Assembly: GCA_001602455.1 (NCBI GenBank)
Contig: CP012157.1
Coordinates: 3,281,733 to 3,345,732, forward strand
Length of the DNA: 64,000 nucleotides
Reading direction: 5' to 3'
Origin: Betaproteobacteria bacterium UKL13-2
GTDB taxonomy: Bacteria > Pseudomonadota > Gammaproteobacteria > Burkholderiales > Usitatibacteraceae
Part shown: positions 11,017 to 29,728 of the stretch, one piece after another
Layout: each line of letters begins with the position of its first letter
Numbering within the stretch: the stretch's first letter is position 1
Translations under genes and position numbers: made by a program
Notes under the pieces: model-generated
The model's input: the letters and a program-made list of their open reading frames with translations, nothing else
Told to the model about the DNA's origin: nothing
The model's database searches: none

Positions 11017-11150
11017 GGGAAATTCTCGAAACCGTCGCGAGCGGGCGAAGTTCGTGCGGACGGGTTTGGCAAACAGGGGGCACGTGCCCAGTGTACGGCG
11101 AGCACCGCAGGCGCGAAATTCGCCCACGCAGCAGGTTTATAGAAGTGCCC
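11017..11150. mobile_element. 134-bp MITE-like repeat A, copy 1
   Basis: The element runs from GGGAAATTCTCGAAACCG to CAGGTTTATAGAAGTGCCC. The two ends are imperfect inverted repeats, and TTTC flanks both sides as a 4-bp direct duplication. It is nearly the same as copy 3 (29595, opposite orientation) and clearly related to copy 2 (15984). There is no coding capacity. It sits in the 419-bp spacer between divergent fmdB and the quinone oxidoreductase gene, directly against repeat B copy 1. Confidence 0.8.
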
Positions 11151-11251
11151 TTTCGCCACGCCTTAGCCTCTGGACATCACCGAGGCAAGTTCGTACGCAC
11201 CGGCTCGGTTGTATTGTCTAATGTCGCTTCTTCTTTACCGATGACCGTGAC

Positions 11252-12271
11252 ATGACCGCACCAGCATCCAGACCCTTACCAACCACGATGCGATTCATTA
11301 CCGCACCAACCGCAGGTGCGCCGGATGTGATGTCGTTGACGACCGGGCCGCTACCGCCGTTCGGTCCACAAGACGTGCTCATCAAGGTTCTATACGCCGG
11401 CGTTAACCGCCCTGACCTCGCGCAACGGTCGGGCAACTACGCGCCGCCACCCGGTGCCTCGCCAATCATGGGATTGGAGGTTGCAGGCGAAATTGTCGCT
11501 CTCGGTGAGAGTGTGACACGCTGGAAAGTGGGCGATCAAATTTGCGCACTCACGCCCGGCGGTGGGTACGCCGAATATTGTGCAGCACCTGCCGCACATT
11601 GCCTGCCAGTTCCAGACGGCCTGAGCATGCTTGAGGCCGCCGGTGTACCTGAGAATTTTTTCACTGTCTGGGTAAACGTATTCGATACCTGTCAGCTTAA
11701 GGCTGGTGAGAAATTTCTGGTGCACGGCGGCTCTAGCGGGATCGGTTTGACCGCTATCCAGTTAGCAAAAGCGTTCGGTGCCGAAGTCTTCACAACCGTG
11801 GGCAACGAAGATAAAGCCGCATTTTGCAAAAAAATCGGCGCGGATCATGTCTTCAACTACAAGTCGCAGGACTGGATGACCGAGATCGCGGCGATCACGC
11901 AGAAGAAAGGCGTCAACGTCATTCTCGATATGGTTGGCGGCTCGTATATCGAGAAGAATTTGCGCTCACTCGCGCTCGAAGGGCGCTACTGCTTCATCGC
12001 ATTTTTAGAAGGCGGTAAAGTGGAAGTCGATTTCCGACCATTGATGATGAAACGTCAAACCATCACTGGCTCCACGCTACGCGCACGACCGGATGCACAA
12101 AAGGCCGCGATCGCTGCGGCGCTTGAAGCGCGGGTGTGGCCATTGCTGGCAGGCGGGACGGTTAAGCCAGTGATCTACAAAACATTTGCGTTGAAAGATG
12201 TGGTGGACGCACATCGCTTGATGGAGTCGAGCACGCATATTGGGAAGATTATGCTGAAGGTGGCGGAGTAG
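11252..12271 (+). CDS. NAD(P)H quinone oxidoreductase, PIG3-like medium-chain dehydrogenase
   Basis: This zinc-free medium-chain dehydrogenase probably reduces quinones with NADPH. From ATG 11252 it has 339 residues; ATG 11288 (MRFITAP) is an alternative start close to where family similarity begins. Landmarks are AGVNRPDLAQRSGNYAPPPGAS, typical of the PIG3 group, GLEVAGEIVALG, the cofactor-binding HGGSSGIGLTAIQLAKAFGA, and the C-terminal HIGKIMLKV. It stands alone on the plus strand between repeats and the ssb terminator. Confidence 0.9.
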   Translation: MTAPASRPLPTTMRFITAPTAGAPDVMSLTTGPLPPFGPQDVLIKVLYAGVNRPDLAQRSGNYAPPPGASPIMGLEVAGEIVALGESVTRWKVGDQICALTPGGGYAEYCAAPAAHCLPVPDGLSMLEAAGVPENFFTVWVNVFDTCQLKAGEKFLVHGGSSGIGLTAIQLAKAFGAEVFTTVGNEDKAAFCKKIGADHVFNYKSQDWMTEIAAITQKKGVNVILDMVGGSYIEKNLRSLALEGRYCFIAFLEGGKVEVDFRPLMMKRQTITGSTLRARPDAQKAAIAAALEARVWPLLAGGTVKPVIYKTFALKDVVDAHRLMESSTHIGKIMLKVAE

Positions 12272-12351
12272 ATATCAACTACCGACAGGCCGGAATACAC
12301 CGGCGGAGTACCGTCAATTCTGCGCGGGTGCAGCCCTGTTCGTTTTCCGCA

Positions 12352-12383
12352 AACAAAAAAGCCAAGCATCTGCTTGGCTTTTG
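12352..12383 (-). terminator. Rho-independent terminator of ssb
   Basis: A perfect stem, AAAAGCCAAGCA with TGCTTGGCTTTT around a TC loop, is followed on the minus strand by a T-run. It lies 21 bp after the ssb stop and between two converging genes, so it may stop transcription in both directions. Confidence 0.85.
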
Positions 12384-12403
12384 TCGATCCGATTTCAAAA
12401 AAA

Positions 12404-12889
12404 CTAAAACGGAATATCGTCATCCATGTCGTCGAATTTTGCCGCGCCACCCTTACTTGGCGCAGGCTTTGCGGCACTGCCGGCACCAGCCGACGCCGGA
12501 CGAGACGCATATTCTGGCGCACCACCCGCTCCTGCTGCGTCACCGCCACCCATGCCGCTGCGTGAGCCCAACATCTGCATCGAATCCGCAAGGACCTCGG
12601 TCGTGTACTTCTCGACACCATCTTTGTCCTGCCATTTACGCGTACGCAATTTGCCTTCAACGTAAACCTGCGAGCCCTTCTTCAAATATTCACCGGCGAT
12701 TTCCGCCAGCTTGCCGAAGAACGCCACACGATGCCATTCGGTTTGTTCCTGCTTTTCGCCGCTTTTATCTTTCCACTGAGACGTGGTGGCGATGGAGATG
12801 TTGGTAATCGCGCCGCCGTCGGGCATATAGCGGGTTTCCGGGTCGCGGCCGAGGTTGCCGACGAGAATAACTTTATTGACTGAGGCCAT
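12404..12889 (-). CDS. ssb: Single-stranded DNA-binding protein
   Basis: SSB coats single-stranded DNA in replication and repair. The 161-residue protein starts [18 protein letters not shown] and has the OB fold to about residue 110 ([20 protein letters not shown]), a Gly/Ala/Pro-rich linker, and the acidic partner-binding tip [12 protein letters not shown] 12889 is chosen because the family start matches exactly; an upstream in-frame Met is spurious. It diverges from uvrA, the usual arrangement in proteobacteria, with a 241-bp shared regulatory region. Confidence 0.97.
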
Positions 12890-12945
12890 AACGTGTTTCC
12901 TTACATTTATGTGGAAAAACCGCACCCAATGTGCTGAATGGAATT

Positions 12946-12961
12946 CTGGTTCAAAGACCAG
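12946..12961. promoter_or_regulatory. Possible LexA operator between ssb and uvrA
   Basis: CTGGTTCAAAGACCAG fits the LexA spacing CTG-N10-CAG, and its arms CTGGT and ACCAG are perfect inverted repeats. It lies 57 bp upstream of ssb and 170 bp upstream of uvrA, both SOS genes in many bacteria. The centre is not the alternating AT stretch of the E. coli site and the fourth base differs from CTGT-N8-ACAG, so the call is tentative. Confidence 0.35.
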
Positions 12962-13130
12962 CATTGCGTTTCAAAAAATAGGTGCAGAACAGTGATGCGA
13001 GCGAGTAATATAGCAGGTTGCTTTTTATCGATGTGCGCCAATTTTTGTCGGCGATTCGGCACATTAAAAGCGCCGTGAATCAACATCTCTTGATTCAATG
13101 ATTTAGCCGAGAAAGTTCATCAAGCACGTT

Positions 13131-15995
13131 ATGGATTACATCAAGATTCGCGGCGCACGGACGCACAATCTCAAGAACGTCAACCTCGATTTGCCCCGTC
13201 ACTCCCTAGTGGTCATCACCGGCCTGTCGGGGTCTGGAAAGTCATCGCTTGCCTTTGACACTCTTTACGCAGAGGGGCAGCGCAGATATGTTGAGTCGCT
13301 CTCAGCATATGCGCGCCAGTTTCTGCAGTTGATGGAAAAACCCGATGTCGATTTGATCGAAGGCTTATCCCCGGCGATTTCTATTGAGCAGAAGGCAACA
13401 TCACACAATCCAAGATCGACAGTGGGCACAGTGACCGAGATCCACGACTACTTGCGCCTGCTCTTTGCCCGCGCCGGTACGCCTTATTGCCCCGAGCACC
13501 AGCTCGCATTAGAGGCGCAGACGGTTTCACAAATGGTGGATACGGTCCTGGCAATGCCATCGGGTGCAAAACTGATGCTCCTGGCACCTGCGGTGGTTGA
13601 CCGAAAGGGCGAACACGTTGAACTCGTCGACGCGTTCCGCAGCCAAGGGTTTGTGCGTATGCGCGTTAACGGAAAAGTGATCGAGATCGACCAATTCCCA
13701 AAACTCGACAAACAAAAGAAACATACCATTGAGGTGGTCGTTGACCGCATCAAAACCGCGCCTGAGTTAAAGCAGCGCATCGCCGAGTCTTTTGAGACCT
13801 GTCTTCGTGTTGGCAACGGCAAAGCTCTCGCGGTTGACATGGATTCGGGTAAAGAGCGACTGTTTTCGTCGAAGTTTTCCTGCCCGATCTGCGACTACTC
13901 GCTATCGGAAATGGAGCCGCGACTATTTTCATTTAACAACCCGATGGGGGCTTGCCCAAGTTGCGATGGGTTGGGTGAGATTACCTTTTTTGATCCAAAG
14001 CGCATCGTCTCCTACCCTGGACTATCGCTCGCCGGTGGCGCAATTAAAGGCTGGGATCGTCGCAACCAGTTTTACTTCCAGACGCTGATCGGTTTGGCGG
14101 AACACTATCAGTTTGATATTGACAAGCCGTTCGACAAACTCACACCTGAGGCGCAGCAGATTATTTTGTTTGGTTCTGGCAAAGACAAAATCCCGTTCAA
14201 GTATCCCGGCGAGCGAGGCAAGCCCATCATTCGCGCTGATGTGTTTGAGGGGATTGTCCCTAACCTAGAACGGCGCTACCGCGAAACAGATTCAATGGCG
14301 GTGCGCGAGGAATTGGCGAAATACATCTCGACCAAAGCCTGCCCCGATTGTGCTGGCACGCGGTTGCGCAAGGAAGCGCGCAATGTCAAGGTGGGCGATA
14401 AGTCGCTCCATGAAATTTCGGCAATGGCGTTGAAGGAATCGTCGCGCTGGTTTGGTAGCGTCAAGCTCTCGCCGCAGAAAATGGCAATTGCCGACAAGAT
14501 CATTACTGAAATTGCTGCCCGTCTGCAATTTTTGAACAACGTCGGCCTTGATTATCTGTCGCTGGTTCGATCAGCAGATACCTTGTCCGGCGGCGAGGCG
14601 CAACGTATCCGTCTCGCCTCACAGATTGGTTCGGGTCTCACCGGCGTGATGTATGTGCTGGATGAGCCATCGATCGGCTTGCACCAGCGTGACAATGATC
14701 GCTTGCTGGAAACGCTAAAGCGCTTGCGCGACTTGGGCAACTCCGTCATTGTTGTTGAGCACGATGAAGACGCTATCAATAGCGCCGACTACGTGGTCGA
14801 CATGGGGCCCGGTGCTGGTGTACACGGCGGCATGGTGGTCGCAGAGGGAACACCCGCGCAAATTAAGAAATCATCGCATTCGCTCACCGGCCAGTATCTC
14901 TCCGGGAAAAAGCGTATCAGCATGCCCAAGTCGCGCTTTAAGTTAGACACGCAGAAGCAGCTCGTCATCAAGGGTGCGCGCGGCAACAACTTGAAGAATG
15001 TGACGCTCGAATTGCCGGTCGGTGGCATGATTTGTATCACCGGCGTATCGGGATCCGGGAAGTCAACACTCATCAACGATACCCTTTATAAAACGGTCGC
15101 ACACCATCTTTATGCCTCAACCAATGATCCCGCGCCGTTCGACTCAATCGAAGGCTTGGACCATTTCGACAAGGTGATCTCGGTTGACCAAGCGCCGATT
15201 GGACGTACACCGCGCTCCAACCCCGCCACCTACACGGGGCTGTTTACGCCAATTCGTGATTTGTTTTCGTCGGTGCCGGAGGCGCGAGCACGCGGCTATG
15301 GCCCGGGTAGATTTTCGTTCAACGTCAAAGGTGGTCGTTGCGAAGCCTGCCAAGGGGATGGCGTGATCAAGGTCGAGATGCATTTCCTGCCGGACGTCTA
15401 TGTGCCATGTGACGTGTGCCACGGCAAGCGTTACAACCGCGAGACCCTAGAGGTGCATTACAAGGGCAAGAACATTACTGAAGTATTGGCGATGACCGTT
15501 GAAAATGCCTTCGAGTTTTTCAAGCCGGTGCCCGTCGTCGCGAGAAAATTGCAGACGTTGCTCGATGTTGGACTGGGCTACATTCGGCTTGGTCAGAGCG
15601 CTACAACGCTCTCGGGCGGGGAGGCGCAGCGTGTCAAACTTTCGTTGGAACTCTCGAAACGCGATACCGGCAAAACACTTTTCATTCTTGACGAGCCGAC
15701 CACGGGATTACACTTCGCCGATATTGATATGTTGTTGAAGGTATTGCACCGCCTGCGCGATCATGGCAACACGGTTGTCGTCATCGAACATAATCTCGAC
15801 GTGATTCGCACGGCCGATTGGGTTATCGATTTGGGACCGGAAGGCGGCGATGGTGGCGGCATGATCCTATGCGAAGGGCCACCGGCGATCATTGCACAGC
15901 ACACGACAAGTTACACCGCGAAGTATCTTCGGCCAATGTTGGGCTTGAACACCAGTAAATCGACAGGCGCATCAAAGAAAACAGGGAACTTCTAA
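13131..15995 (+). CDS. uvrA: Excinuclease ABC subunit A
   Basis: UvrA is the damage-recognition ATPase of nucleotide excision repair and loads UvrB. The 954-residue protein has two ABC modules: Walker [13 protein letters not shown] near residue 31 and [13 protein letters not shown] near 640, signatures [12 protein letters not shown] and [12 protein letters not shown], and Walker B segments [11 protein letters not shown] and [11 protein letters not shown]. The zinc-binding Cys pairs CPIC and CPSC, and CEAC-CDVC in the second half, are intact. The last codons Gly-Asn-Phe and the stop lie inside repeat A copy 2, so the extreme C-terminus was set by an insertion. Confidence 0.97.
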
Positions 15996-16117
15996 AAACC
16001 GTCACGAGCGGGTGAAGTTGGCAGTGACGGGGTTGACAAACGCGGGACACGTACCCAGTGTACGGCGAGCACCGGAACTGACAGATTCGCCCGCGCAGTA
16101 GGTTTTTAGAAGTTCCC
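15984..16117. mobile_element. 134-bp MITE-like repeat A, copy 2
   Basis: The ends are a perfect 17-bp inverted repeat: GGGAACTTCTAAAAACC at 15984-16000 and its complement at 16101-16117. AACA flanks both sides as a direct duplication. The interior is related to copies 1 and 3, with the shared core CCAGTGTACGGCGAGCACCG. The left end overlaps the last three codons and TAA of uvrA. Because the arms are perfect, this may be the least decayed copy in the window. Confidence 0.85.
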
Positions 16118-16205
16118 AACAGCAAATGTCTAGATTCGGCGGGCATTTTCGAGCACTTTTGCCCCAAACTGCGCGTCATTCCTTGCGATTAAAAATTCAG
16201 ACCGT

Positions 16206-17498
16206 ATGAGCCCTCGCGACCTGTTACTCGATAGTTTTCGTGCCGCATTAGCGGTCGCCGATCCACTACAGATCGTGCCGAAACACCTGCCGACGCCGCC
16301 AACATCTGGCAAAACCATCGTCGTCGGCGCGGGAAAAGCTGCCGCTGCGATGGCCAAGGCCGTTGAAACCCATTGGCCGAGCGACGCGCCACTCAGCGGC
16401 CTCGTCATCACACGCTATGCACACGGCTACAGCGGCGCAGAGGCGTTGACGCGCATTCGTGTCATTGAGGCTGGGCACCCAGTGCCTGACGAGTCCGGCG
16501 AGCGTGCGGCGCAAGAAATCCTAGCACTCGCGCAGTCGGCAGGCCGGGATGACCTCCTGCTCGTGCTGGTATCGGGTGGCGGATCAAGCTTGCTTTCGCT
16601 GCCTGCCGGCGAAATCTCGATGGCCGATCTGAAGGCGGTCACACGGGATCTGCTGGCCAGCGGTGCGCCGATTCAGGACATGAATATCGTGCGTAAGCAT
16701 TTGTCTGCTATCCAAGGTGGCCGACTCGCAGCCGCAACATCCGCACATGTGGTCACGCTCATCATTTCGGATGTGACTGACGATGATCCGTCGGCAATTG
16801 CATCAGGGCCGACGGCGCCCGATCGCTCCACCTACCAGAACGCGCTCGATATCCTCAACCGGTTTCGCATTACGCCGCCCGTCTCGGTCGCACGTCATCT
16901 GTCGAATGGCGCACGCGGCAATATCGCTGAGACCCTGAAGCCAGACGACGCCGTATTTGCGCGAGTCGATAACCGCATCATTGCCACGGCGCACCAAAGC
17001 CTGTCAATGGCAGCGGCGTATTTTCAGCAACATGGCATCACCCCGATGATTCTCGGCGATAGCGTGACAGGTGAAGCGCGCGAGGTCGCCAAGGTTTACG
17101 GCGCGCTGGTTCGCCAAATTAGACAGCACCATCACCCACTCAAGCCGCCGGTCGCGCTCATCTCAGGCGGCGAGTGTACAGTCACGATTAGACCCGGCAA
17201 TAAGGGGCGTGGTGGCCGCTGTTCCGAGTTCCTGCTGTCGCTGGCCATTGATCTCAACGGTCTGCCGCAGGTCCACGCCTTGGCTTGTGATACCGATGGT
17301 ATTGATGGCTCTGAACAAAATGCAGGCGCTGTTTTACTCGACCGAAACTTCGCACAGGCAGTCGCCAACGGTCTGAATCCGCAAAACCTTCTCGATGCTA
17401 ACGACGCATTCGGTTTTTTCGCGTCGACCGGCGATGTTATCGTCACTGGCCCCACTCGAACAAACGTCAACGACTACCGGGTGATTTTGGTACTTTGA
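16206..17498 (+). CDS. Glycerate 2-kinase, MOFRL family
   Basis: This family phosphorylates D-glycerate to 2-phosphoglycerate and is also annotated as TtuD or hydroxypyruvate reductase. The 430-residue protein has the N-terminal Rossmann-like domain (KTIVVGAGKAAAAMAKAVE, EAGHPVPDE, VLVSGGGSSLLSLP, DMNIVRKHLSAIQGGRLA, SDVTDDDPSAIASGPT) and the C-terminal MOFRL domain (ISGGECTVTIR, GRGGRCSEFLLSLA, DTDGIDGSE). ATG 16206 opens with the usual SPRDLLLDSF. It stands alone after repeat A copy 2. Glycerate comes from glyoxylate or tartrate metabolism, but no such genes are adjacent. Confidence 0.92.
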   Translation: MSPRDLLLDSFRAALAVADPLQIVPKHLPTPPTSGKTIVVGAGKAAAAMAKAVETHWPSDAPLSGLVITRYAHGYSGAEALTRIRVIEAGHPVPDESGERAAQEILALAQSAGRDDLLLVLVSGGGSSLLSLPAGEISMADLKAVTRDLLASGAPIQDMNIVRKHLSAIQGGRLAAATSAHVVTLIISDVTDDDPSAIASGPTAPDRSTYQNALDILNRFRITPPVSVARHLSNGARGNIAETLKPDDAVFARVDNRIIATAHQSLSMAAAYFQQHGITPMILGDSVTGEAREVAKVYGALVRQIRQHHHPLKPPVALISGGECTVTIRPGNKGRGGRCSEFLLSLAIDLNGLPQVHALACDTDGIDGSEQNAGAVLLDRNFAQAVANGLNPQNLLDANDAFGFFASTGDVIVTGPTRTNVNDYRVILVL

Positions 17499-17537
17499 GC
17501 CTATAAACGGTAGTTGACCGCGAGAAGTGCCAGAAAA

Positions 17538-17603
17538 CTTAGCCTGAACATTTCATGGGGCACCCGCCACATCAAAGGATGTTGATGAAGTATTTCGGCT
17601 AAG
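17538..17603. repeat. 66-bp inverted repeat related to the 4843 element
   Basis: The left arm CTTAGCCTGAACATTTCATGG (17538-17558) faces an imperfect inverse at 17584-17603, which reads CTTAGCCGAAATACTTCATC on the other strand. The left arm matches the ends of the 201-bp element at 4843-5043, so this looks like a deleted relative. It lies between the glycerate kinase gene and the response regulator gene. Confidence 0.4.
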
Positions 17604-17790
17604 GAAAACCCTTATTCTGGCCTTAATGGGCAGCAGTCAATTGCCCGCTTCGCTATACTCGTCAATATGGTCGCCGCGTTAGCGTTAGTCTTGGGCGACG
17701 CGCTCGCGGCGCTATTTTGCCGACATGGCTAAGGTGAGGGTAAGCACCCGGGAATCGACCGAGAAGGGTCAGCAGGCGGCGGGACATATT
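17604..17790. other. Spacer without recognisable gene
   Basis: This part of the 378-bp gap before the response regulator has no convincing gene. Short frames are not preceded by ribosome binding sites, and I could not pick a clear promoter, although one for the regulator gene should be here. Confidence 0.4.
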
Positions 17791-17839
17791 GCATCGTTTA
17801 GAGCCGCATCGTTTAGAGCCGCATCGTTTAGAGCCGCAT
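17791..17839. repeat. Three tandem copies of a 15-bp unit
   Basis: GCATCGTTTAGAGCC is repeated three times without a mismatch (17791-17835), followed by GCAT. The array ends 37 bp before the ATG of the response regulator gene, so it is in the promoter or leader. It may be a replication-slippage array whose copy number varies, or a set of binding sites. Confidence 0.75.
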
Positions 17840-17876
17840 AGGCCACAACAAGAATAACTGCTGCATCGGAGAAAGA

Positions 17877-18536
17877 ATGGATATGAAGTTTCGCATCATG
17901 GTGGTCGATGATCACGCGATTGTCCTGCACGGACTGACGCAACTCATCAACAATTCGCCGGACCTTGAAGTCACGATACAGGCGCAATCGGCGGAGGCCG
18001 CCATTGAGTTACTAAAGGCTAACCCGCTGCCAGACCTCGTTGTCACCGATATCTCGCTACCGGGTTTGTCCGGGATCGATTTAACGAAAACGCTGACGGC
18101 GCAGTTCCCGAAACTTCCAGTGCTGGTTTTGTCGATGCATGAAGAAATGGTTCACGGCGAAAGGGCATTCCGCGTCGGCGCAAAGGGTTACCTGACCAAA
18201 CAAGAGGCCGCCGATAAAGTCGTGGTGGCAATTCGACGCATACTGAGCGGCGAAGACTATCTCAGCGAGCGCATGCAAACAATGCTACTGCATCAGATCC
18301 GCAATAAGCCGAAGTCGGGCGCGATTTCGGTGTTGTCTCGCTTAACGGATCGCGAGTACGAGATTTTCAGGTTGATCGGCATGGGGATGAGCTCGTCCGA
18401 AATTGCGGATAAATTGTCCCGCAGCGTAAAGACCGTCGAAGCGCATCGGGCGAACTTGAAGCAAAAGCTCGGTCTGCGAAATGCTATTGAGTTGAATCGC
18501 TTTGCGGTGCACTACGCTGATCGTGAACGAATCTAG
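17877..18536 (+). CDS. NarL/FixJ-type response regulator, orphan
   Basis: This two-component regulator has 219 residues. The receiver domain (about 1-125) carries the acidic pocket VVDDH at 9-13, phospho-acceptor Asp58 in VVTDISLPG, the conserved Ser in VLVLSMHE and Lys in GYLTK. The LuxR-type helix-turn-helix occupies about 150-212, with LTDREYEIFRLIGMGMSSSE and VKTVEAHRANLKQKLG. GGAG stands just before the ATG. No histidine kinase gene is adjacent, so its partner is elsewhere. The decayed gene immediately downstream gives no clue to its target. Confidence 0.92.
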   Translation: MDMKFRIMVVDDHAIVLHGLTQLINNSPDLEVTIQAQSAEAAIELLKANPLPDLVVTDISLPGLSGIDLTKTLTAQFPKLPVLVLSMHEEMVHGERAFRVGAKGYLTKQEAADKVVVAIRRILSGEDYLSERMQTMLLHQIRNKPKSGAISVLSRLTDREYEIFRLIGMGMSSSEIADKLSRSVKTVEAHRANLKQKLGLRNAIELNRFAVHYADRERI

Positions 18537-18559
18537 ACGGCGTCTCAAAACTGTCATGG

Positions 18560-18778
18560 CTGAAAATTGAGTTGCTGGATCATCTAGTTCCCACCGTCGC
18601 GCGCATCGATGAGTCGGTTGCGTTCTACACCAACGTACTCGGAATGACGGTACAACATTTTGGCAGCCAAGATGTCCCAAGAATCGCGTTAGCGTTTGGC
18701 AGACGTTAGCAGACGTTTGGCCGACAGAAAATCAACCTGCATCAGTCGGATCGTATTCCTGACGCCAACGCGGCTTAG
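18560..18778 (+). pseudogene. Glyoxalase-fold (VOC family) pseudogene fragment
   Basis: In the frame of 18560 the sequence reads LLDHLVPTVARIDESVAFYT, NVLGMTVQHFG, then LAFGR, a TAG stop, then TFGRQKINLHQSD and PDANAA before a second stop. This matches the first half of VOC-fold proteins (IDHLVLTV-DI-SVAFYT-VLGM, then FG-QKINLH). A short duplication (TTTGGCAGACG / TTTGGCCGACAG around 18693-18725) introduced the premature stop, and the second half of the gene is missing. No start codon is visible. Identification is from conserved pattern only. Confidence 0.65.
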
Positions 18779-18787
18779 TTGCAAAAA

Positions 18788-18820
18788 CAACGCACAAACA
18801 ATGCACAAACAATGCACAAA
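18788..18820. repeat. Three tandem copies of an 11-bp unit
   Basis: Three near-identical copies of the unit AATGCACAAAC run together directly before the rplQ terminator hairpin. The first copy has one substitution. It lies in the spacer between the VOC pseudogene and rplQ, and looks like replication slippage. Confidence 0.6.
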
Positions 18821-18850
18821 TAAAAAGCCGGCTTGCGCCGGCTTTTTATT
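18819..18850 (-). terminator. Terminator of the alpha (rpoA-rplQ) operon
   Basis: A strong stem, AATAAAAAGCCGGC with GCCGGCTTTTTATT around a short loop, lies 17 bp after the rplQ stop. On the minus strand it ends in a T-run. It marks the 3' end of the 8.8-kb rplN-rplQ series. Confidence 0.9.
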
Positions 18851-18866
18851 GTCTAAAACTAAGGAT

Positions 18867-19268: not shown

Positions 19269-19351
19269 CGTAAATTTCCTTTGTTCTCTTGGCCGTTTTG
19301 CTTAGTGGAACCTAAGCCAGCCTTGTTATCGTTATGGGTTATAGATAAAAA

Positions 19352-20329: not shown

Positions 20330-20391
20330 TGACGAGGGCCTCTATAGGTTGACGCGCGCCGTGGCGTCCCACAGCGCGAGGATGAAACGGA

Positions 20392-21012: not shown

Positions 21013-21032
21013 GTGGATATCTCTTTTGCGAA

Positions 21033-21431: not shown

Positions 21432-21455
21432 TGTGTGTACCTCGTTTCCGAAACT

Positions 21456-21818: not shown

Positions 21819-21830
21819 GATAGATGACCT

Positions 21831-21944
21831 TTAGCCTTGACGTTGCTTATGACGCGGATCTTTGCAAATGACGCGCAAAACACCTTTGCGACGCACCAAC
21901 TTGCAATTGCGACAGATTTTTTTGACAGATGCCTGAACTCGCAT
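21831..21944 (-). CDS. rpmJ: 50S ribosomal protein L36
   Basis: This 37-residue gene is easily missed because of its size. It reads [20 protein letters not shown] and then [17 protein letters not shown]. Cys11, Cys14, Cys27 and His32 form the zinc site, so this is the zinc-binding form of L36. An AGGAG-like ribosome binding site precedes ATG 21944. It lies between infA and rpsM as expected. Confidence 0.96.
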
Positions 21945-21968
21945 TTCTTTCTCCTTGCTGTCCGTCGC

Positions 21969-22187
21969 CTATTTGGCGCGGAAGGTAATACGTGCTTTCG
22001 TTAAATCGTAGGGCGAAATCTCAACCGTGACTTTGTCCCCCGGCAATATGCGGATGTAGTGCATACGCATCTTTCCAGAGATATGACCCAACACGACATG
22101 CCCGTTTTCCAACTTCACCCGGAACATTGCGTTCGGCAATGTTTCCTGGATTACGCCCTGCATTTCAATCGTTTCTTCTTTTGACAT
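21969..22187 (-). CDS. infA: Translation initiation factor IF-1
   Basis: IF-1 blocks the ribosomal A site during initiation. The 72-residue OB-fold protein begins [20 protein letters not shown] and contains [20 protein letters not shown] and [20 protein letters not shown]. It lies between secY and rpmJ, the usual betaproteobacterial location. Confidence 0.97.
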
Positions 22188-22218
22188 TAATCTACGACCG
22201 TTCCCTTTTCGCTAAAGC

Positions 22219-23541
22219 TTACCGAAGAGGGAAGCCTGCGCCGCCTTTGAAGTTCGCCTTCTTGAGCAGGCTTTCATACTGGTGAGACATCAAATACGCT
22301 TGCAACTGCGCCATGAAATCCATCGTCGTCACAACGATGATCAAGAGCGACGTACCACCGAAGTAGAACGGCACATTCCAACGCATGTGCAAAAACTCGG
22401 GCAACAAACAAACTGCGGTGATGTAGCCTGCACCTATGAGCGTGAGGCGCATCAAAATCTTGTCGATGTAACGTGCGGTTTGTTCACCAGGACGGATGCC
22501 AGGAACAAATGCGCCACTCTTCTTCAGGTTCTCTGCCGTCTCTTTCGAGTTGAACACCAGTGCGGTATAAAAAAAACAGAAAAAGATAATCGCCGCCGCG
22601 TACAGCAAGGTGTACAAGGGCTGACCAGGTGCGAGCGCCGCGCCGAGGTCTTTCAACCATACCATCTTATCGCCCTGACCAAACCAGCCCGCAACAGTCG
22701 CTGGAAACAAAATGATCGAGGATGCAAAGATGGGGGGAATCACCCCAGCCATGTTGAGCTTCAGTGGTAGATGCGACGCTTGCCCGCCATACATTTTGTT
22801 GCCAACTTGGCGCTTGGCGTAGTTCACCAAAATCTTTCGCTGGCCGCGTTCAACAAACACGACAAAGAAGGTAACAAATACAACCAAAGCCAAAATAAAC
22901 AAGAAGGCGGGAATCGACATCGTACCGTTATTGACAAGCTCCATCGTGCCACCGATCGCGCCCGGCAGGCCAGCAACAATGCCCGCGAAGATGATGAGAG
23001 AGATGCCGTTACCAATGCCGCGCTCAGTGATCTGCTCACCGAGCCACATTAAGAACATTGTGCCGCCAACTAACGTGACCACAGTGACAAAGCGGAACAT
23101 CATTCCCGGGTCAACAACCAAACCTTGTTGCGATTCCAATGCAATCGAAATGCCAACCGCTTGGAACAGGGCCAACGCGACCGTTCCATAACGGGTGTAC
23201 TGCGTAATCTTCCGACGACCGGCCTCACCTTCCTTTTTCAGCGCCTCAAGTTGCGGGGAGACCACCGTCAAAAGCTGCATGATGATGGACGCCGAAATGT
23301 AGGGCATGATGCCCAGCGCGAAGACCGAGAAGCGCGACAACGCGCCTCCCGAGAACATGTTAAACATGCCCAAGACGCCGCCGCCTTGCGTATCGAACAA
23401 CTTGGCCAACTGCACTGGGTCGATTCCCGGCACCGGAACATGGGTTCCGATGCGGAAGACAATCAATGCAAGCACCAAGAAAATCAAGCGACTTTTCAGG
23501 TCGCCCATTTTTCCGATCGCTGCTAATGGATTTGTAGCCAA
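22219..23541 (-). CDS. secY: Preprotein translocase subunit SecY
   Basis: SecY is the channel of the general secretion translocon. The 440-residue protein has ten predicted membrane helices. Landmarks are the N-terminal [20 protein letters not shown], the plug segment [20 protein letters not shown] and the cytoplasmic [19 protein letters not shown] loop. The partner secE is 31 kb away in the rpl-rpo region. rplO precedes it by 21 bp. Confidence 0.97.
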
Positions 23542-23562
23542 ACGCTTATTTCCAATCTAGGG

Positions 23563-24009
23563 TTAAGCGGCAGGGGCAACTTCAACCGAGCCGCCAGCGG
23601 CTTCGATTGCAGCCTTCGCGCCTTTAGTGGCACCGATACCCACTAGCTTTACTTTCTTCTCGATACCACCGGAAAGAAATACTTTTGCCGCCAATGCACC
23701 TGGCGAAATCACATTCGCCTGCTTCAGAACAGCGAGGTCGATGGTGTCGACTGGCAGCATTGCGATTTCAGATAGCCGAACCTGCGCGGTATCGTTACGT
23801 GTCAACGAAACAAAGCCACGTTTTGGCAGGCGACGTTGCAACGGCATTTGCCCGCCTTCAAAGCCAACTTTATGAAAGCCACCGGACCGCGATTTCTGTC
23901 CTTTATGGCCACGACCAGCAGTCTTACCAAGACCAGAACCGATACCACGACCTACACGGCGACGCGGCTTTTTTGAACCCTCAGCGGGTTTAATGTCATT
24001 TAAATCCAT
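23563..24009 (-). CDS. rplO: 50S ribosomal protein L15
   Basis: L15 is a late-assembly protein of the 50S subunit. The 148-residue product starts [20 protein letters not shown] and has the Gly/Arg/Lys-rich [20 protein letters not shown] and the segment [20 protein letters not shown]. It is separated from rpmD by only 5 bp. Confidence 0.97.
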
Positions 24010-24014
24010 GATGC

Positions 24015-24200
24015 TTAGCCTTCAACTTGGAGCATGTAGCTCACTTTATTGATCATGCCGCGATTTGCGGGTGTATCAATGACCGTAACGGTGTGATGCA
24101 GTCTCTTCAAGCCTAGACCACGTACACATGCCTTATGCGCTTCCAAGCGGCCGATGGTGCTCTTGCGCAGCGTCACTGTGATGGTTTTCTGGTTAGTCAT
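24015..24200 (-). CDS. rpmD: 50S ribosomal protein L30
   Basis: L30 is a small 23S rRNA-binding protein. The 61-residue product has the pattern [20 protein letters not shown] then [11 protein letters not shown] and [14 protein letters not shown]. Length and position between rpsE and rplO are normal. Confidence 0.96.
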
Positions 24201-24223
24201 GCGGTTTTCTCCAAGCGGCTCGA

Positions 24224-24733
24224 TTAGCCCAAAATCTCTTCAACAGTTTTGCCGCGCTTCGCAGCAACTTCAGATGGGCGTGAAATTTGTGCCAAGCCGT
24301 CAAGAGTCGCGCGAACCACGTTGTATGGGTTGGTCGAACCGTGACACTTTGCCGAGATGTTGGTGATACCCATTACCTCGAACACCGCGCGCATCGCACC
24401 GCCAGCCTTGATGCCGTTACCTTCAGCCGCAGGCTGCATAAACACTTTGGTACCGCCATGCTTACCGATGACTTCGTGATGCAGCGTGCCATTTTTGAGA
24501 GGAATCTTGACGAGCTTACGGCGGGCCTGCTCCATTGCCTTTTGAACGGCAACTGGAACCTCTTTTGATTTGCCCTTGCCCATACCGATACGGCCATCGC
24601 CGTCACCCACTACGGTCAATGCTGCGAAGCCAAGAATACGACCACCCTTAACGACTTTCGTGACTCGGTTAACCGAGATCATCTTTTCGCGGAGACCGTC
24701 GCCTTCTTTTTCCTGAATTTCTGGTTTTGCCAT
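24224..24733 (-). CDS. rpsE: 30S ribosomal protein S5
   Basis: S5 acts in decoding accuracy and mRNA unwinding. The 169-residue protein has the N-terminal double-stranded RNA-binding region ([40 protein letters not shown]) and the C-terminal domain with [21 protein letters not shown]. It lies 14 bp after rplR. Confidence 0.97.
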
Positions 24734-24747
24734 TTGGACGTCCTTGA

Positions 24748-25104
24748 CTAAAACTTGAGGCCGGCTTCACGCGCGGCATCTGCCAGCGCTTTCACGCGGC
24801 CGTGGTAAGCGAAACCAGCGCGGTCGAACGCGACGTCCGAAACCCCGGCGGCTTTAGCACGCTCAGCAATACGTTTACCAACTTCGGCGGCGGCAGCCGC
24901 TGTGGCACCGCTCTTTAACGCGGCACGCAACTCTTTTTCTGCGGTGGATGCTGCAGCCAGAACTTTCGCACCGGTTGCGTCGATCACCTGCGCGTAGATA
25001 TGCGTGTTGGTGCGATGTACGGTCAAACGCACTGCCTTCAAACGCGCAATGATTGCGCGGGTTTTTGCGGCACGGCGCAGACGGGATTGTTTTTTGTCGA
25101 TCAT
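24748..25104 (-). CDS. rplR: 50S ribosomal protein L18
   Basis: L18 binds 5S rRNA in the central protuberance. The 118-residue protein starts [20 protein letters not shown] and contains [14 protein letters not shown] and [20 protein letters not shown] followed by REAGLKF, the diagnostic end. Confidence 0.97.
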
Positions 25105-25115
25105 GATCGAACTCC

Positions 25116-25649
25116 TTACTTCTTCTTCGTCTCTTTAAGAACGATGACTTCGTCCGAGTAACGCACGCCCTTGCCCTTGTAGGGCTCTGGCGGACGATAA
25201 CCACGCACGATGGCGGCGACTTGGCCAACCTTCTGCTTGTCAACGCCCTTCAAAATGATTTCCGTCGGGGTTGGCGTTTCCGCCTTCACGCCTTCAGGCA
25301 TCTCGTGAATGACCGGATGCGAATAGCCCAGCGCCAAATTCAACTTGGCACCTTGCGCTGCGGCCTTGTAACCGACGCCGACCAGCATCAACTTGCGCTC
25401 AAAGCCTTTATCGACACCGTGAACCATGTTTGCCAACAAGGCACGCATCGTTCCAGACATGGCATTTGCCGCCTGCGAATCATTCGCCGCTTCCAACACG
25501 AGCTTGTCGCCATCACGCTTGATATTGACCAGCGAGGTGGCAGCTTGCTTCAAGACGCCCAGCGGGCCCTTGACGGTAATTTCGTCAGCCGCAAGTGTTA
25601 CTTCGACTTTTGCGGGAACAGTGATGGGGAGCTTACCAACGCGGGACAT
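25116..25649 (-). CDS. rplF: 50S ribosomal protein L6
   Basis: L6 lies near the factor-binding site of the 50S subunit. The 177-residue protein is chosen from ATG 25649 ([13 protein letters not shown]); nine extra upstream codons overlap rpsH. The two L6 repeats are visible, with VTVKGPLG-like start, [20 protein letters not shown] and the C-terminal [20 protein letters not shown]. Confidence 0.97.
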
Positions 25650-25660
25650 GTGCGCTCTCC

Positions 25661-26056
25661 TTACACGACGATGCAAATCACTTCGCCACCGACACCGGTA
25701 GCGCGCGCTTTGCGATCGGTCATGACACCTTTAGATGTGGACACAATCGCCACGCCCAAGCCGTTCATAACAGGTTTGATATCTTCACGCCCACGATAGA
25801 TTCGCAGACCCGGACGGGAAACGCGCTCGATCTTTTCGATCACCGGCTTGCCCGCATAGTATTTGAGCCCAACATTGAGCTCAGACTTGCCGTCAACGGT
25901 ACGCACATCAAAACCTTCGATGTAGCCTTCGTCTTTCAGCACATTTGCGATTGCAACCTTCACCTTGGAAGACGGCATCGTCACATCAACTTTTTCCGAT
26001 TGTTGCGCATTACGAATGCGGGTCAACATATCGGCGATCGGATCACTCATGCTCAT
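25661..26056 (-). CDS. rpsH: 30S ribosomal protein S8
   Basis: S8 binds the centre of 16S rRNA and in E. coli represses the spc operon. The 131-residue protein has [35 protein letters not shown] and ends [12 protein letters not shown]. Starts at Met1 or Met3 are both possible. Confidence 0.97.
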
Positions 26057-26080
26057 AATTTATCTCCGCCCTACTTCCCG

Positions 26081-26386
26081 CTACCAGCTAGCTTTAACCA
26101 GACCCGGCACTTCACCGCGCATGGCAATTTCACGCAACTTGTTACGACCCAACCCAAACTTGCTGTAGACGCCACGCGGACGACCGGTAATCGCGCAACG
26201 ATTACGGAGGCGAGTTGGATTGGAGTTTCGCGGAAGCGCCTGCAACTTCAGACGCGCCTGATAACGATCTTCGTCAGAAGCACTCTGATCGTTGATGATC
26301 TTGAAAAGCGCTTCGCGCTTCGCCTTGAATTTCGCCACGAGCTTTTCGCGCTTGGCTTGACGGTTAATCACTGCAAGTTTGGCCAT
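26081..26386 (-). CDS. rpsN: 30S ribosomal protein S14 (zinc-free long form)
   Basis: S14 lies in the 30S head. The 101-residue product is the long, Cys-motif-free form typical of proteobacteria. It starts [20 protein letters not shown] and ends [21 protein letters not shown]-like. The internal [20 protein letters not shown] is diagnostic. It begins 4 bp after rplE. Confidence 0.96.
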
Positions 26387-26390
26387 GCGC

Positions 26391-26930
26391 TTAACCCCTG
26401 AAAGGAAACTTGAATGCAGCGAGGAGCGCCTTGGCTTCTGCGTCATTCTTGGCGGTGGTGGTAATCGAAATATTCATGCCGCGAATCGCGTCAATCTTGT
26501 CGTATTCGATTTCCGGGAAAATAATCTGCTCTTTCACGCCCATGTTGTAGTTGCCACGACCATCAAAGGAGCGGCCAGAGATACCACGGAAGTCACGAAC
26601 GCGCGGCAGCGAGACGGTGATCAGGCGATCGAGAAATTCGTACATGCGGTTTGCGCGCAATGTCACCATGCAACCGATCGGATAACCATCGCGAATTTTG
26701 AATCCTGCGATTGATTTCTTCGACAGCGTTACGACTGGCTTTTGGCCGGCAATTTTTGTCATATCACCAACGGCGTGGTCCATGATTTTTTTGTCCGCAA
26801 CCGCTTCACCGACACCCATGTTCAAGGTGATCTTAGTGATACGTGGTACTTCCATCACGGATTTGTAACCGAAATCCTGCATCAACTTCGGCACAACGGT
26901 TTCTTTGTAAAACGATTGGAGTCGAGCCAT
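26391..26930 (-). CDS. rplE: 50S ribosomal protein L5
   Basis: L5 binds 5S rRNA and the P-site tRNA. I choose ATG 26930 ([20 protein letters not shown]), giving 179 residues; upstream in-frame codons belong to rplX shadow. Core segments are [40 protein letters not shown] and the C-terminal [20 protein letters not shown]. Confidence 0.97.
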
Positions 26931-26943
26931 GTTAAGCGCCCCC

Positions 26944-27264
26944 TTAAGCGTCGATTTGTTCGCCATTGGAAGCAAACACGCGAACTTTGCGCTTGTCATC
27001 CAACGACTTAAATCCGACGCGATCCGCTTTTCCGGAGGTCGGGTTGAAAATTGCGACGTTGGAAAGATGAATAGACATCTCTTTTTCAACGATGCCGCCC
27101 GTTGAGCCCTTCATCGGGTTTGGCTTGGTGTGTTTCTTCACCCGGTTGATTCCCTCAACCAGCACGCGCTCGGTCTCAAGGATCATCGATAGCACGGTTC
27201 CGCGCTTGCCTTTATCCTTACCGGTGATGACGACCACTTGGTCGCCTTTACGTATCTTGTTCAT
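26944..27264 (-). CDS. rplX: 50S ribosomal protein L24
   Basis: L24 starts 50S assembly. The 106-residue KOW-domain protein begins [20 protein letters not shown] and continues RGTVLSM. The segment [13 protein letters not shown] and the end region [20 protein letters not shown] are typical. Confidence 0.97.
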
Positions 27265-27285
27265 GGCGTATTTTCCTTTGCATCC

Positions 27286-27654
27286 CTACAGCACTTCAGG
27301 CGCCAGCGACACGATCTTCATGAACTTTTCAGTGCGCAACTCACGCGTCACTGGTCCAAAGATACGCGTGCCGATCGGCTCAAGCTTTGCGTTCAACAAC
27401 ACCGCAGCGTTGCCGTCGAATTTGATCAACGACCCGTCGTTACGACGAACACCTTTGGCGGTACGCACAACCACGGCGTTATAGACTTCGCCTTTTTTGA
27501 CGCGTCCGCGCGGTTGCGCTGATTTGATACTGACTTTGATGACATCACCAACGCCCGCATAACGGCGCTTGGAGCCGCCAAGGACTTTGATACACATCAC
27601 CGAACGCGCACCGGTGTTATCGGCGACGTCGAGAATCGACTGCATCTGAATCAT
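27286..27654 (-). CDS. rplN: 50S ribosomal protein L14
   Basis: L14 lies at the subunit interface. The 122-residue product starts [20 protein letters not shown], with [20 protein letters not shown] and [22 protein letters not shown]-like end. It is the first gene of the spc series. Unlike most betaproteobacteria, rpsQ is not directly upstream: a 4.9-kb insert with an IS and two enzymes intervenes, so rplN must be expressed from its own promoter. Confidence 0.97.
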
Positions 27655-27897
27655 TTTTTTATCTCCAACTTACCCGCCACAAGTGGCAGCCAGTTTTGGA
27701 TCCGTCTTATGTCTTCGCACCTGATCCGGAGACCCGAATTAAATGCGCCGACAGGTTAGAAAGCTTCTTGTGCCCGATCGCTTAAAGCACTTTTGCAAGT
27801 GCGGCTTGTGCAGACTTTCAGGCGGCAGGGTCAAAACGCGCCCTGTTTTTGCAGACTTTCAGCCGACATAGCCACGGCTGGAGCAGCGAAGTCCGCC
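27655..27897 (-). other. Leader of the spc operon
   Basis: This spacer is upstream of rplN and downstream of a candidate promoter at 27898-27927, so it would be a leader of roughly 235 nt. It holds two copies of GCAGACTTTCAG (27812 and 27851 regions) about 40 bp apart and no gene. Confidence 0.4.
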
Positions 27898-27927
27898 AGT
27901 ATAGGCGAACCTTGTCCCCCAAAGCAA
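27898..27927 (-). promoter_or_regulatory. Candidate sigma-70 promoter of the spc operon
   Basis: On the minus strand TTGCTT (27922-27927) and TATACT (27898-27903) are separated by 18 bp. This is a fair match to the consensus in the place where E. coli has its spc promoter. It lies just inside the edge of the neighbouring IS (27940), so the insertion left it intact or supplied the -35 neighbourhood. Confidence 0.5.
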
Positions 27928-27939
27928 GCGGTTTCTCGG

Positions 27940-29588
27940 ATTATCCTAAATCCGGCAGTTACCCTGCCGCTGTAAGGTGGGCTGACGGTAGCCAAGGTGG
28001 CAGTGGGCGCGTGATTTTGGCCACTACGTAGTCCAGAAATGTCTTCCATCGATCCGTAAAAGGCAACTGCTCCGCAATATCCCTGACATGACTTAAAGCC
28101 GCACGAATGTTGGCAATGAGCGCGAGCAACTTGTCCTTGGCAGCATGCATGGGTGTCAGATACAGCGTTGTCTGTCCCGCATGTTTGACAGCGCGCCCCA
28201 CACTGGCAAGCAATAACGCTCGGCTGGTTATGGCTTCCATGCGTGCACCCGGCTTGGCCGCCCGGCAATACCAAGACCACCAGTTGTACACCAGCGCTAC
28301 AGCGCGAGCACTGGTCTGGCAGCGCTCAATGTCCTGGGTCGTGAAGCCACCCCATCCCCACTGATTTTTGAGCTCGTCAAATCCGTTCTCGCAGTCAGCC
28401 CGGTCCCGATAGAGTTGACCGAACGCGTCCAATGCGTAGGCGCTGTTTGTCACCAGCACCGCGTATTCCCAAGCCTGAACATCCTTGTCCGGCATCAGCA
28501 ACTCAATCTGCTCGCCCGGCTCGTTCTTGGTCTTTCGACTCAGCGCCAAATCGGCTTTGACGGCACGCCGCAAGATCACTACCCGACGTGATTTGTCCCA
28601 GCCCGAGAGTTTGAGGGTATCTTCGACTGCGCTCCAGCCTTGCTCGCTGGGGCCGGGTGTACTCCAGTCATCACGCGCGAATTGGCGTGCCAATAATTTC
28701 TTGACACCCACAGTCTGACGCAGCTTGAACAGGTAGGGCTGGTCTCGCTCCTCCAGCTCGGCGATAAAGGGTTCGTTGCCAAAGCCGCAATCGCCTCGGA
28801 CCAAGGCCGGACGCTGCTGGGGCGTGAGCTTTTCCAGTACGCCGATCAGACCAGGCCGCGCTTTGGCCGCGCTGTGCTCTTTGCCGGGGCAGACGACAAC
28901 GTCCAGCACCAGGCGCAGGTTGCCAACCCAGTATGTGTGCAGTGCGTGGCTCGGGCGCCCGGGTTTGTGTGGGTTGTAGCTGACCTCAGCTCCGCTTTGT
29001 TTTCCGAACATCGGCTTGATGGTGGTGTCGATATCCAGGATCCAAGGGGTGCTCAGTGCCGCTTGCACACTACCCATGAGCTGGGGGGCAAGCCAGGCCT
29101 GGCTTTGCTCGGCGCTCATACGCGACAGTGCGCGTCGCAGCGCGTCTTCGCTGATGATTTTCTTCATCCCCAGAATCTGCGGGCTCACCGCGTCGCCGCG
29201 CAGCCCGGTGATATGGGCGTAGCGGTTGTGCCCTGCCAGTATCGCCAGCAGCCATGTGCCCAAGATATCCTGTTTGCTGGGTGCATTGGGGCTTGTGTAG
29301 CTCAATGGGCAGCTATCGACCCAGGAGCTGTACACACCCGTGGTGGCCAAGAACTCGGAGAAGAAGGTCAACTGTGCATTCGGTGTGGCGCTGGCACCAT
29401 GGTCCCACTTCACATGAATTCGCCCGCCCGGCGTATCCACCACCATGGCCTCCAGTGCCTGCGTTTGGACCGCAAGTTGACGCCTTTTTGCTTCACCCAT
29501 TTGGTGACTCCAATAAATCCATTGAAATTGGCGTCTAGTCTAGCTTGCAGCCGGTTTACGCAATGTCAACTGCCGGAAATAGGATTAT
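27940..29588 (-). mobile_element. Insertion sequence with DDE transposase
   Basis: The ends are inverted repeats: ATTATCCTAAATCCGGCAGTT at 27940-27960 and, on the other strand, the sequence at 29568-29588, 18 of 21 matching. The element of about 1.65 kb holds one transposase gene on the minus strand. I could not find a convincing target duplication. The right end is 6 bp from repeat A copy 3. Insertion lies in the spacer between the S10 and spc units. Confidence 0.85.
27959..29500 (-). CDS. DDE transposase (IS1380/IS4-like)
   Basis: The 513-residue transposase begins MGEAKRRQLAVQTQALEAM and is full length, without frameshift or internal stop. Likely catalytic residues are Asp156 or Asp158 in WILDIDTTIKP, Asp237 in VRGDCGFGNEP and Glu371 in YRDRADCENGFDELK, the last resembling the Y-R-E-K style signature. 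Family placement between IS1380 and IS4 is by pattern memory and not certain. The stop lies within the left inverted repeat region. The intact frame suggests recent arrival or ongoing activity. Confidence 0.9.
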   Translation of the reverse strand: MGEAKRRQLAVQTQALEAMVVDTPGGRIHVKWDHGASATPNAQLTFFSEFLATTGVYSSWVDSCPLSYTSPNAPSKQDILGTWLLAILAGHNRYAHITGLRGDAVSPQILGMKKIISEDALRRALSRMSAEQSQAWLAPQLMGSVQAALSTPWILDIDTTIKPMFGKQSGAEVSYNPHKPGRPSHALHTYWVGNLRLVLDVVVCPGKEHSAAKARPGLIGVLEKLTPQQRPALVRGDCGFGNEPFIAELEERDQPYLFKLRQTVGVKKLLARQFARDDWSTPGPSEQGWSAVEDTLKLSGWDKSRRVVILRRAVKADLALSRKTKNEPGEQIELLMPDKDVQAWEYAVLVTNSAYALDAFGQLYRDRADCENGFDELKNQWGWGGFTTQDIERCQTSARAVALVYNWWSWYCRAAKPGARMEAITSRALLLASVGRAVKHAGQTTLYLTPMHAAKDKLLALIANIRAALSHVRDIAEQLPFTDRWKTFLDYVVAKITRPLPPWLPSAHLTAAG

Positions 29589-29594
29589 TCAATA

Positions 29595-29728
29595 GGGCAC
29601 TTCTATAAACCTGCTGCGTGGGCGAATTTCGCACCTGCGGTGCTCGCCGTACACTGGGTACGTGTCCCGTGTTTGCCAAACCCGTCGGCACGAACTTCGC
29701 CCGCTCGCGACGGTTTCGAGAAGTTACC
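29595..29728. mobile_element. 134-bp MITE-like repeat A, copy 3
   Basis: This copy is in the opposite orientation to copy 1 and very similar to it. It runs from GGGCACTTCTATAAACCTGC to a right end that reads GGTAACTTCTCGAAACCG on the other strand. AATA flanks both sides as a direct duplication. It lies 6 bp from the end of the IS, inside the 314-bp gap between the transposase and SDR genes; the rest of that gap (29729-29814) shows only a loose inverted repeat GTCGGCCA/TGGCCGAC. Confidence 0.8.

Follow-up and report, generated by a model that had tools for sequence, protein, structure and literature searches.

A family of miniature inverted-repeat transposable elements (MITEs) in the genome of Betaproteobacteria bacterium UKL13-2 very probably targets a dispersed palindrome with base precision, nearly every insertion falling just outside one of the palindrome's two arms. 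The analysis started from a window of 64,000 nucleotides (positions 3281733-3345732 of the single contig of 3,387,087 bp, CP012157.1; "the window" denotes this whole stretch), in which a first-pass annotation had described three 134-bp mobile elements and overlooked this larger point. In a profile search of MITE flanks, a 66-68-bp palindrome was found to adjoin 82 of 92 MITEs, and the distance from the MITE to the palindrome centre is 40 or 41 nt in 77 of 84 contacts. The 134-bp elements, together with variants of 122 and 146 bp, are with similarly high probability MITEs of an insertion sequence (IS) of the IS5 family (IS5_4 type).

MITE Copies in the Window and the Genome

The elements, target site duplications (TSDs) and palindromes of the window are as follows, R1 being the palindrome profile built from 46 aligned sequences.

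10943..11010, no strand: 68-bp palindrome targeted by copy 1, at a distance of 7 nt from the MITE in the profile match; R1 44.1 bits, among the 46 used to build R1
11013..11016, no strand: TSD TTTC left of copy 1; right partner 11151-11154
11017..11150, + strand: MITE copy 1, 134 bp; CGAAACC end left, ATAAACC end right; family by BLASTN
13131..15995, + strand: uvrA, with UvrA model matches; final codons and stop within MITE copy 2
15980..15983, no strand: TSD AACA on the left side of copy 2, with its partner on the right at 16118-16121; unduplicated in G009 and G007, where the site is empty
15984..16117, + strand: MITE copy 2, 134 bp; perfect 17-bp terminal inverted repeats (TIRs); left end supplies the uvrA TAA stop
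16124..16191, no strand: 68-bp palindrome (degenerate), target of copy 2; R1 matches in the window and in L197, L198 and L199; without MITE in G009, G007 and G008
29591..29594, no strand: TSD AATA left of copy 3; right partner 29729-29732
29595..29728, - strand: MITE copy 3, 134 bp; orientation opposite to that of copies 1 and 2; no adjoining palindrome
30666..30731, no strand: palindrome of the same family without MITE, 47.5 bits; among the 46 used to build R1
51059..51106, no strand: palindrome of the same family (partial match) without MITE, 38.9 bits
57942..58003, no strand: palindrome of the same family without MITE, 36.3 bits
59182..59247, no strand: weak palindrome of the same family without MITE, 21.1 bits

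Rereading of the sequence reproduced the annotated positions and inverted ends of the three copies, every one of which is exactly 134 bp long. Their 17-bp ends are GGGAAATTCTCGAAACC / GGGCACTTCTATAAACC in copy 1, GGGAACTTCTAAAAACC at both sides in copy 2 and GGGCACTTCTATAAACC / GGTAACTTCTCGAAACC in copy 3, so that a perfect 17-bp TIR is, as annotated, a property of copy 2 and among the window copies of copy 2 only. The flanking repeats TTTC, AACA and AATA are all perfect.

The genome-wide search proposed in the first-pass annotation revealed a dispersed family of at least 92 copies. Whole-copy searches, each scoring the best 40 of 139-167 candidates, yielded at least 60, 51 and 49 matches for copies 1, 2 and 3, respectively. 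The TIR pattern, with up to three mismatches, occurs 144 and 142 times on the two strands (reversed control: 8 and 4); at two ends per copy, these 286 end matches suggest about 140 MITEs in the genome. In 79 stretches around copies, ends were paired by script into 108 TIR pairs, of which 92 were kept; thirteen pairs were excluded, either for their length or as chance window pairs, and included some real longer or fused copies; three more were removed by hand. The commonest lengths among the 108 pairs are 134 bp (54), 122 bp (17) and 146 bp (13), and the fixed size of 134 bp therefore holds for the three window copies and not genome-wide. These main length classes step by 12 bp in the centre of the element, as seen in L036 716-837 (122 bp), window 15984-16117 (134 bp) and L019 501-646 (146 bp). 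The ends fall into subfamilies beginning CGAAACC, ATAAACC and AAAAACC. At mostly 122-146 bp, the elements are too short for a transposase; their annotated non-autonomous character is borne out by TIRs, TSDs, small size and an empty site (see below).

The 4-bp flanks are identical in 54 of the 92 copies, differ by one base in 14 and by two or more in 24. Shuffled flank partners predict 2.8 identical and 10.0 one-mismatch cases, and 0 and 1, respectively, are obtained when the flanks are shifted by 4 bp. The duplications are AT-rich, with 174 of 216 bases being A or T. One segment containing MITEs and a palindrome is repeated at several places in the chromosome (L011, L017, L018, L059), where TSD mismatches may be a trace of recombination between copies.

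Fixed Spacing Between MITE and Palindrome

The palindrome profile was seeded with eight MITE flanks and iterated over the same loci. The seven contacts outside the 40/41-nt class lie at 39 nt (two), 42 nt (three), 35 nt (one) and 46 nt (one). Contacts are split evenly, 42 per palindrome side, and either type of MITE end may face the palindrome; in the window, the palindrome lies to the left of copy 1 and to the right of copy 2. No palindrome was detected by the profile beside copy 3, which is one of ten exceptions among the 92 copies, and the association is therefore a strong preference, not a requirement. It could be argued from the AT-rich duplications that the MITE just has a preference for AT-rich intergenic DNA, where it would encounter palindromes by chance. 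This is exceedingly improbable: 77 of 84 contacts share the base-precise distance, which recurs in other species (see below), and the explanation is refuted unless the distance is an alignment artefact.

Several loci have the arrangement MITE-palindrome-MITE, in which one palindrome has been struck on both sides. In L009, L031 and L036, both MITEs have their own perfect duplication, which rules out that such loci are composite transposons; in L017, L026 and L030, one of the two MITEs is without duplication. A tandem MITE-palindrome array is found at L025 636-931, where near-identical, directly oriented palindrome copies lie on both sides of a 146-bp MITE.

An A-rich flank at the position where the TSD would fall is present even on arms for which no MITE is listed, and the target thus belongs to an extended palindrome. 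Comparison of arms proximal and distal to the MITE revealed no clearly different base inside the arm, some distal arms possibly carrying unlisted MITEs. A weak signal of resemblance exists between the arms and the TIR (mean score 6.43 vs. 5.57), with one of 100 shuffled TIR sets scoring as high.

Relatives and Empty Sites

Within the genus, the MITE is matched over varying lengths in the own genome and in six of the 12 others (G006-G009, G011, G012). Outside the genus, three of 137 genomes match the MITE, through its core only (G014, G127, G149). Within the genus, 20 loci of relatives were brought in by MITE match, and 13 of them have both ends. Twelve of these 13, from five related species, have the palindrome, which lies at 40 or 41 nt in 11 loci and at 39 nt in L137; the two-ended locus L121 gave no palindrome match. 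The seven other loci (L118, L123, L129, L130, L136, L139, L140) were left out of this count; the palindrome is present in L136 and was found in none of the other six. The palindrome itself was detected in all 13 genomes of the genus, with at least 34 scored matches each and including the six without MITE match, and outside the genus in one of 137 genomes, weakly (E 3.7e-4).

A comparison with empty sites, as proposed in the first-pass annotation, gave a clean result for copy 2 in G009 and G007. Both genomes match the window up to the insertion point and then, without gap, from the right duplication onward: in G009, contig C82, the two flank matches are 10571-11153 and 11151-11933, and contig C75 of G007 behaves likewise. 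G009 reads GAAAACG and, directly across the insertion point, GCAAATGCCTAG; the window reads GAAAACA, the MITE and then AACAGCAAATGTCTAG. Since these orthologous sites are clean and empty, copy 2 is an insertion. At the uvrA site of G009 and G007, the palindrome and a single-copy target are present and the MITE is absent; the palindrome without MITE is also found at the orthologous site of G008, and no palindrome was detected by the model in eight further genomes with matches to both flanks of the copy 2 site (G001-G006, G010, G011). The source of the uvrA stop codon differs as well: it is a TAA from the MITE end in the window (GGG AAC TTC TAA, 15984-15995) and a TAG from the palindrome arm in G009 (CCTAG). 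The flanks of copy 1 lie on different contigs in G009 and G007, and a clean empty-site reading is possible for copy 2 only.

These sites bear on the idea that MITE and palindrome form one composite mobile unit and that their spacing is simply inherited. Constant spacing would be expected of such a unit, and the MITE of L025 indeed lies between two near-identical palindrome copies. The duplication, however, where seen, directly flanks the MITE, with one copy between MITE and palindrome; the MITEs occur on either side and in either orientation; the palindromes are strongly divergent (46 of 80 aligned, mean column identity 71%); and the palindrome stands alone at the same locus in G009 and G007. 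A shared unit is consequently highly improbable.

The IS5-Family Partner

The first-pass annotation had suggested mobilization by an IS5-like transposase and a search for an IS with the MITE ends. Such elements were found in relatives; in the own genome, the 30 PF01609 matches fetched out of 51 included one-ended remnants only. IS5-family elements of three relatives have 17-bp ends identical or nearly identical to those of the MITE and, in two of them, 4-bp TSDs; since relatives' elements combine these features, the comparison of sequences supports IS5-like mobilization as the likely source of movement.

The element L226, in the metagenome-assembled genome Burkholderiales bacterium NC_groundwater_599, spans 1740-2980, has the ends GGGAACTTCTAAAAACC / GGGAGCTTCTAGAAACC and the TSD CAGA, and contains one transposase open reading frame (ORF) of 350 aa, which matches NF033581 with 248.8 bits (cut-off 140) and DDE_Tnp_1. 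One of its ends is identical to a MITE end and the other has one or two differences, and the same applies to L146/L227 of G010, whose ends show 0 and 1 mismatch from the pattern. L146/L227 has the TSD TTTT at both sides and transposase matches in two overlapping frames. L144/L224 of G007 has the ends GGGAACTTCTCGAAACC and GGGAACTTCTAAAAACC, both of which are found on MITEs too; its transposase frame is interrupted, and its contig starts 3 nt left of the element. An internally shorter IS copy with worn ends was found in G009 (L145). Two of the partners thus belong to the same genus, L144 in a genome with MITEs (G007) and L146 in one where no MITE match was seen (G010).

In the own genome, five IS5-family transposase remnants (L088-L092) have one end, GGGAATTTCTCGAAACC or a decayed form of it; the remnant L089 matches NCBIfam NF033581 from profile position 37 onward. 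IS remnants are situated at the same palindrome distance as the MITEs, with L089 at 41 nt, L145 at 41 nt and L090 at 42 nt from the centre. Four of the five remnants (L088-L091) lie within 21 kb (own genome 132621-153224) in near-identical repeats, which adjoin a gene with FG-GAP-like repeats, as read from the translation, and tandem CCCTATT repeats. Neighbouring MITEs are likewise present in L109 and L088.

Another transposase with a long frame of about 526 aa accounts for 18 copies among 51 PF01609 matches, one of them at window 27959-29500, beside MITE copy 3. Neither of the two copies fetched (L116, L117) showed MITE-type ends, and this IS group was set aside as partner. More generally, a transposase of another family with similar ends might move the MITE, the IS5 element being a fellow traveller. 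The lack of an intact IS5 partner in the own genome, in a search confined to PF01609, would fit this explanation, which is nevertheless very unlikely: three relatives, two of which belong to the genus, have IS5-family elements with matching 17-bp ends, and L146 and L226 show 4-bp duplications.

The MITE Core Beyond the Genus

In the MITE searches, in which the two were not aligned directly, the interior of the MITE gave no match to the IS interior; it matches a repeat core found in other families of the order. The core follows the pattern GTAGCGAGCGG - variable - GTAC nnnn GTAC - variable - CCGCGCAGTAG, the exact form of which occurs in 11 of 399 genomes, and other genera and families of the order have relatives of the MITE interior without the MITE ends. 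The outer flanks of the core tend to complement each other (mean run 11.9 vs. 5.0 for shuffled partners; 14 of 20 loci read), with no complementarity in L298. Their sequence differs between groups and is common to related loci of G127, G202 and G194. In L294-L302, L304, L306, L308, L309 and L311, the core is flanked by inverted repeats that differ between locus groups, and L302 has ends that look IS5-type and are bordered by TTAA, which gives the impression of one core provided with different ends. The MITE resembles a more widespread fold-back repeat core to which the ends of an IS5 element would have been added in this genus.

Sequence Constraint and Genomic Position of the Palindrome

Gap-free alignment was possible for 46 of 80 palindromes found, cut as windows of 68 nt. 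The equal length was chosen by the analyst; most profile matches nonetheless span 66-68 nt. The kept sequence of each arm is approximately AAA-[CG]-T-C-variable-CGGGC-[AG]-TTTTCAGGCA. The arms begin AAAACTC, and a GTAG or CGTC tag at one end is not present.

Over the variable positions 7-13, left and right arms show no coupling (z from -0.4 to 0.9). Coupling is present at position 3 (z 4.2), and the anti-coupling of the centre follows from how it was set. Re-paired arms fold as well (mean -21.9 vs. -22.4 to -23.7 kcal/mol for real ones; 75 palindromes). Because the arms vary independently and re-paired arms fold equally well, it seems from the alignments that the arm sequence, not its pairing, is kept, as in a conserved sequence dyad rather than a hairpin. 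The independent variation also rules out a hairpin with locus-specific, covarying stems. A stem kept by compensatory change, as in an intrinsic terminator, was not found, coupling being present at position 3 alone. Within an arm, the strongest coupling exists between neighbouring positions, with positions 8 and 9 being AA, AG, CC or TT in 127 of 137 arms (1.11 bits).

These data bear on the palindrome's own constraint and less on the transposase, which might recognize an extruded hairpin or cruciform instead of the arm sequence. Palindromes of this family are able to fold, as three examples showed (z -2.7, -5.9 and -5.1), position 3 is coupled, and palindrome-directed insertion has been described for other insertion sequences (PMC1525189). 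The independence of positions 7-13, the equal folding of re-paired arms and the insertion outside the stem speak against recognition of a hairpin, which we regard as unlikely.

The best 150 of 1573 candidate matches in the genome represent 91 distinct sites, all with E <= 4.9e-11. At least 42 of these 91 best-scoring sites have a MITE end within 75 bp and 49 have none listed, counts to be read with a model trained mostly on occupied sites and an incomplete list of MITE ends. Ninety-six sites were placed relative to genes: 30 tandem, 21 convergent, 2 divergent, 30 apparently inside ORFs, 12 at a locus edge and 1 far, as assigned by a crude ORF caller on short loci, which may inflate the inside-ORF figure. 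The palindrome tends to sit close behind stop codons. In six loci, no Rfam family came near its gathering score.

Tentatively, and as a possibility that we would not yet favour, the palindrome may represent a hitherto undescribed protein-binding dyad at gene ends that is nearly confined to the genus and conserved in sequence rather than in pairing. The IS5 transposase, along with its MITEs, would then dock on the resulting nucleoprotein complex, and a host factor that organizes the chromosome or acts at the end of transcription would set the landing site to a single base.

Discussion

The observed insertions, duplication length, ends and target position, together with a palindrome that predates the MITE at the copy 2 locus, allow a mechanism to be outlined. 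Insertion almost always falls into an A/T-rich tetranucleotide just outside one palindrome arm, 40 or 41 nt from the centre. Either arm may be the target and either MITE end may face the palindrome, and use of both arms in turn results in MITE-palindrome-MITE loci. An IS5 transposase would act in trans on the MITE ends. The strand-transfer complex would read the palindrome by its sequence, probably directly, less likely via a dyad-binding host protein and, with a still smaller probability, via an extruded hairpin. Other DDE elements insert beside sequences resembling their own ends. Direct reading is preferred here because the arms slightly resemble the TIR, a weak signal, and because IS remnants abut the palindrome; a host protein is the main alternative. 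As the palindromes are mostly located just behind stop codons, they may offer the element a low-cost landing site.

Several observations weigh against this interpretation. A recognizable duplication is missing in 24 of 92 copies, and ten copies, including copy 3 of the window, have no adjoining palindrome. The own genome yielded no intact autonomous copy in a search confined to PF01609, in which 30 of 51 matches were fetched; the intact L226 is 63% identical to an own-genome remnant, and the two-ended IS copies L144, L146 and L226 gave no palindrome match. Finally, the palindrome profile was trained on the very MITE flanks in which it was counted. The free palindromes of the window, the other species and the empty sites do not depend on this seeding. 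The first-pass annotation had itself listed missing duplications, variable ends and purely ancestral positions as arguments against mobility: the first is seen in the 24 copies mentioned and the second in the end subfamilies, and the empty orthologous sites of copy 2 speak for mobility.

The 4-bp TSD, the TIRs and the transposase of the partner agree with IS5-family insertion sequences (NCBIfam NF033581, IS5_4), the MITE itself coding for none. With less than 500 bp, TIR, TSD and a strong fold, the family resembles the prokaryotic MITEs Nezha, RUP and QMITE, as characterized in the part of PMC10969869 at hand; there, insertion preference is described as an intergenic and 3' untranslated region bias and clustering, and a fixed offset to another repeat family is not named. 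Searches of open-licence literature, covering titles, abstracts and excerpts, turned up no MITE placed at a constant distance from a dispersed palindrome.

A constant insertion position relative to a dispersed extragenic palindrome is known from insertion sequences that target repetitive extragenic palindromes (REPs). According to the accessible sections of the corresponding survey, these belong to several families, IS5 included, and comprise ISPsy8, ISPa11, ISPpu9, ISPpu10, ISRm22, ISRm19 and the IS5-family ISNm1106 (Tobes and Pareja, 2006; PMC1525189). The base-precise type 1 cases given there are IS3, IS110 and IS4 elements that break the REP and have single-digit or about 10 copies. ISNm1106 merely lies in the vicinity of REPs (4 of 7 and 7 of 14), so that the association of the IS5 family, as far as these sections go, is only loose. 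In contrast, the element described here is a MITE that lands just outside the palindrome in 82 of 92 copies, and its palindrome has no GTAG tag. Type 1 is defined, in the same sections, by 100% of copies at one palindrome position; with 77 of 84 contacts at 40/41 nt and ten of 92 copies without palindrome, the MITE falls short of this figure and acts alike. REP-targeting insertion sequences, including a loosely associated IS5 member, were already known, and the feature that appears new is the base-precise offset of a MITE to a dispersed palindrome.

The palindrome also resembles GTAG/CGTC REPs and REP dimers, which, in the excerpt consulted, are likewise dispersed palindromes near stop codons (PMC3733652). 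The same excerpt states that GTAG REPs often give a TAG stop and that REP dimers of some species lie inside larger palindromes. Neither tag is found on the target palindrome, which differs from these REPs also in that its arms give no indication of maintained pairing at variable positions. The MITE core, in turn, is similar to a repeat that begins with GTAGCGAGCGG in other families of the order.

Next to palindromes that differ in sequence, dozens of insertions occupy a single base position; together with an empty site, they constitute a natural experiment on target choice by IS5-type DDE transposases. As an intact transposase ORF (L226) and the target palindrome are both in hand, choice of the palindrome by a DDE transposase is directly testable. 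The MITEs moreover expose an abundant palindrome family, present in 13 of 13 genomes of one genus, whose arms are under an unusual constraint, with no covariation between them and dinucleotide classes within each arm.

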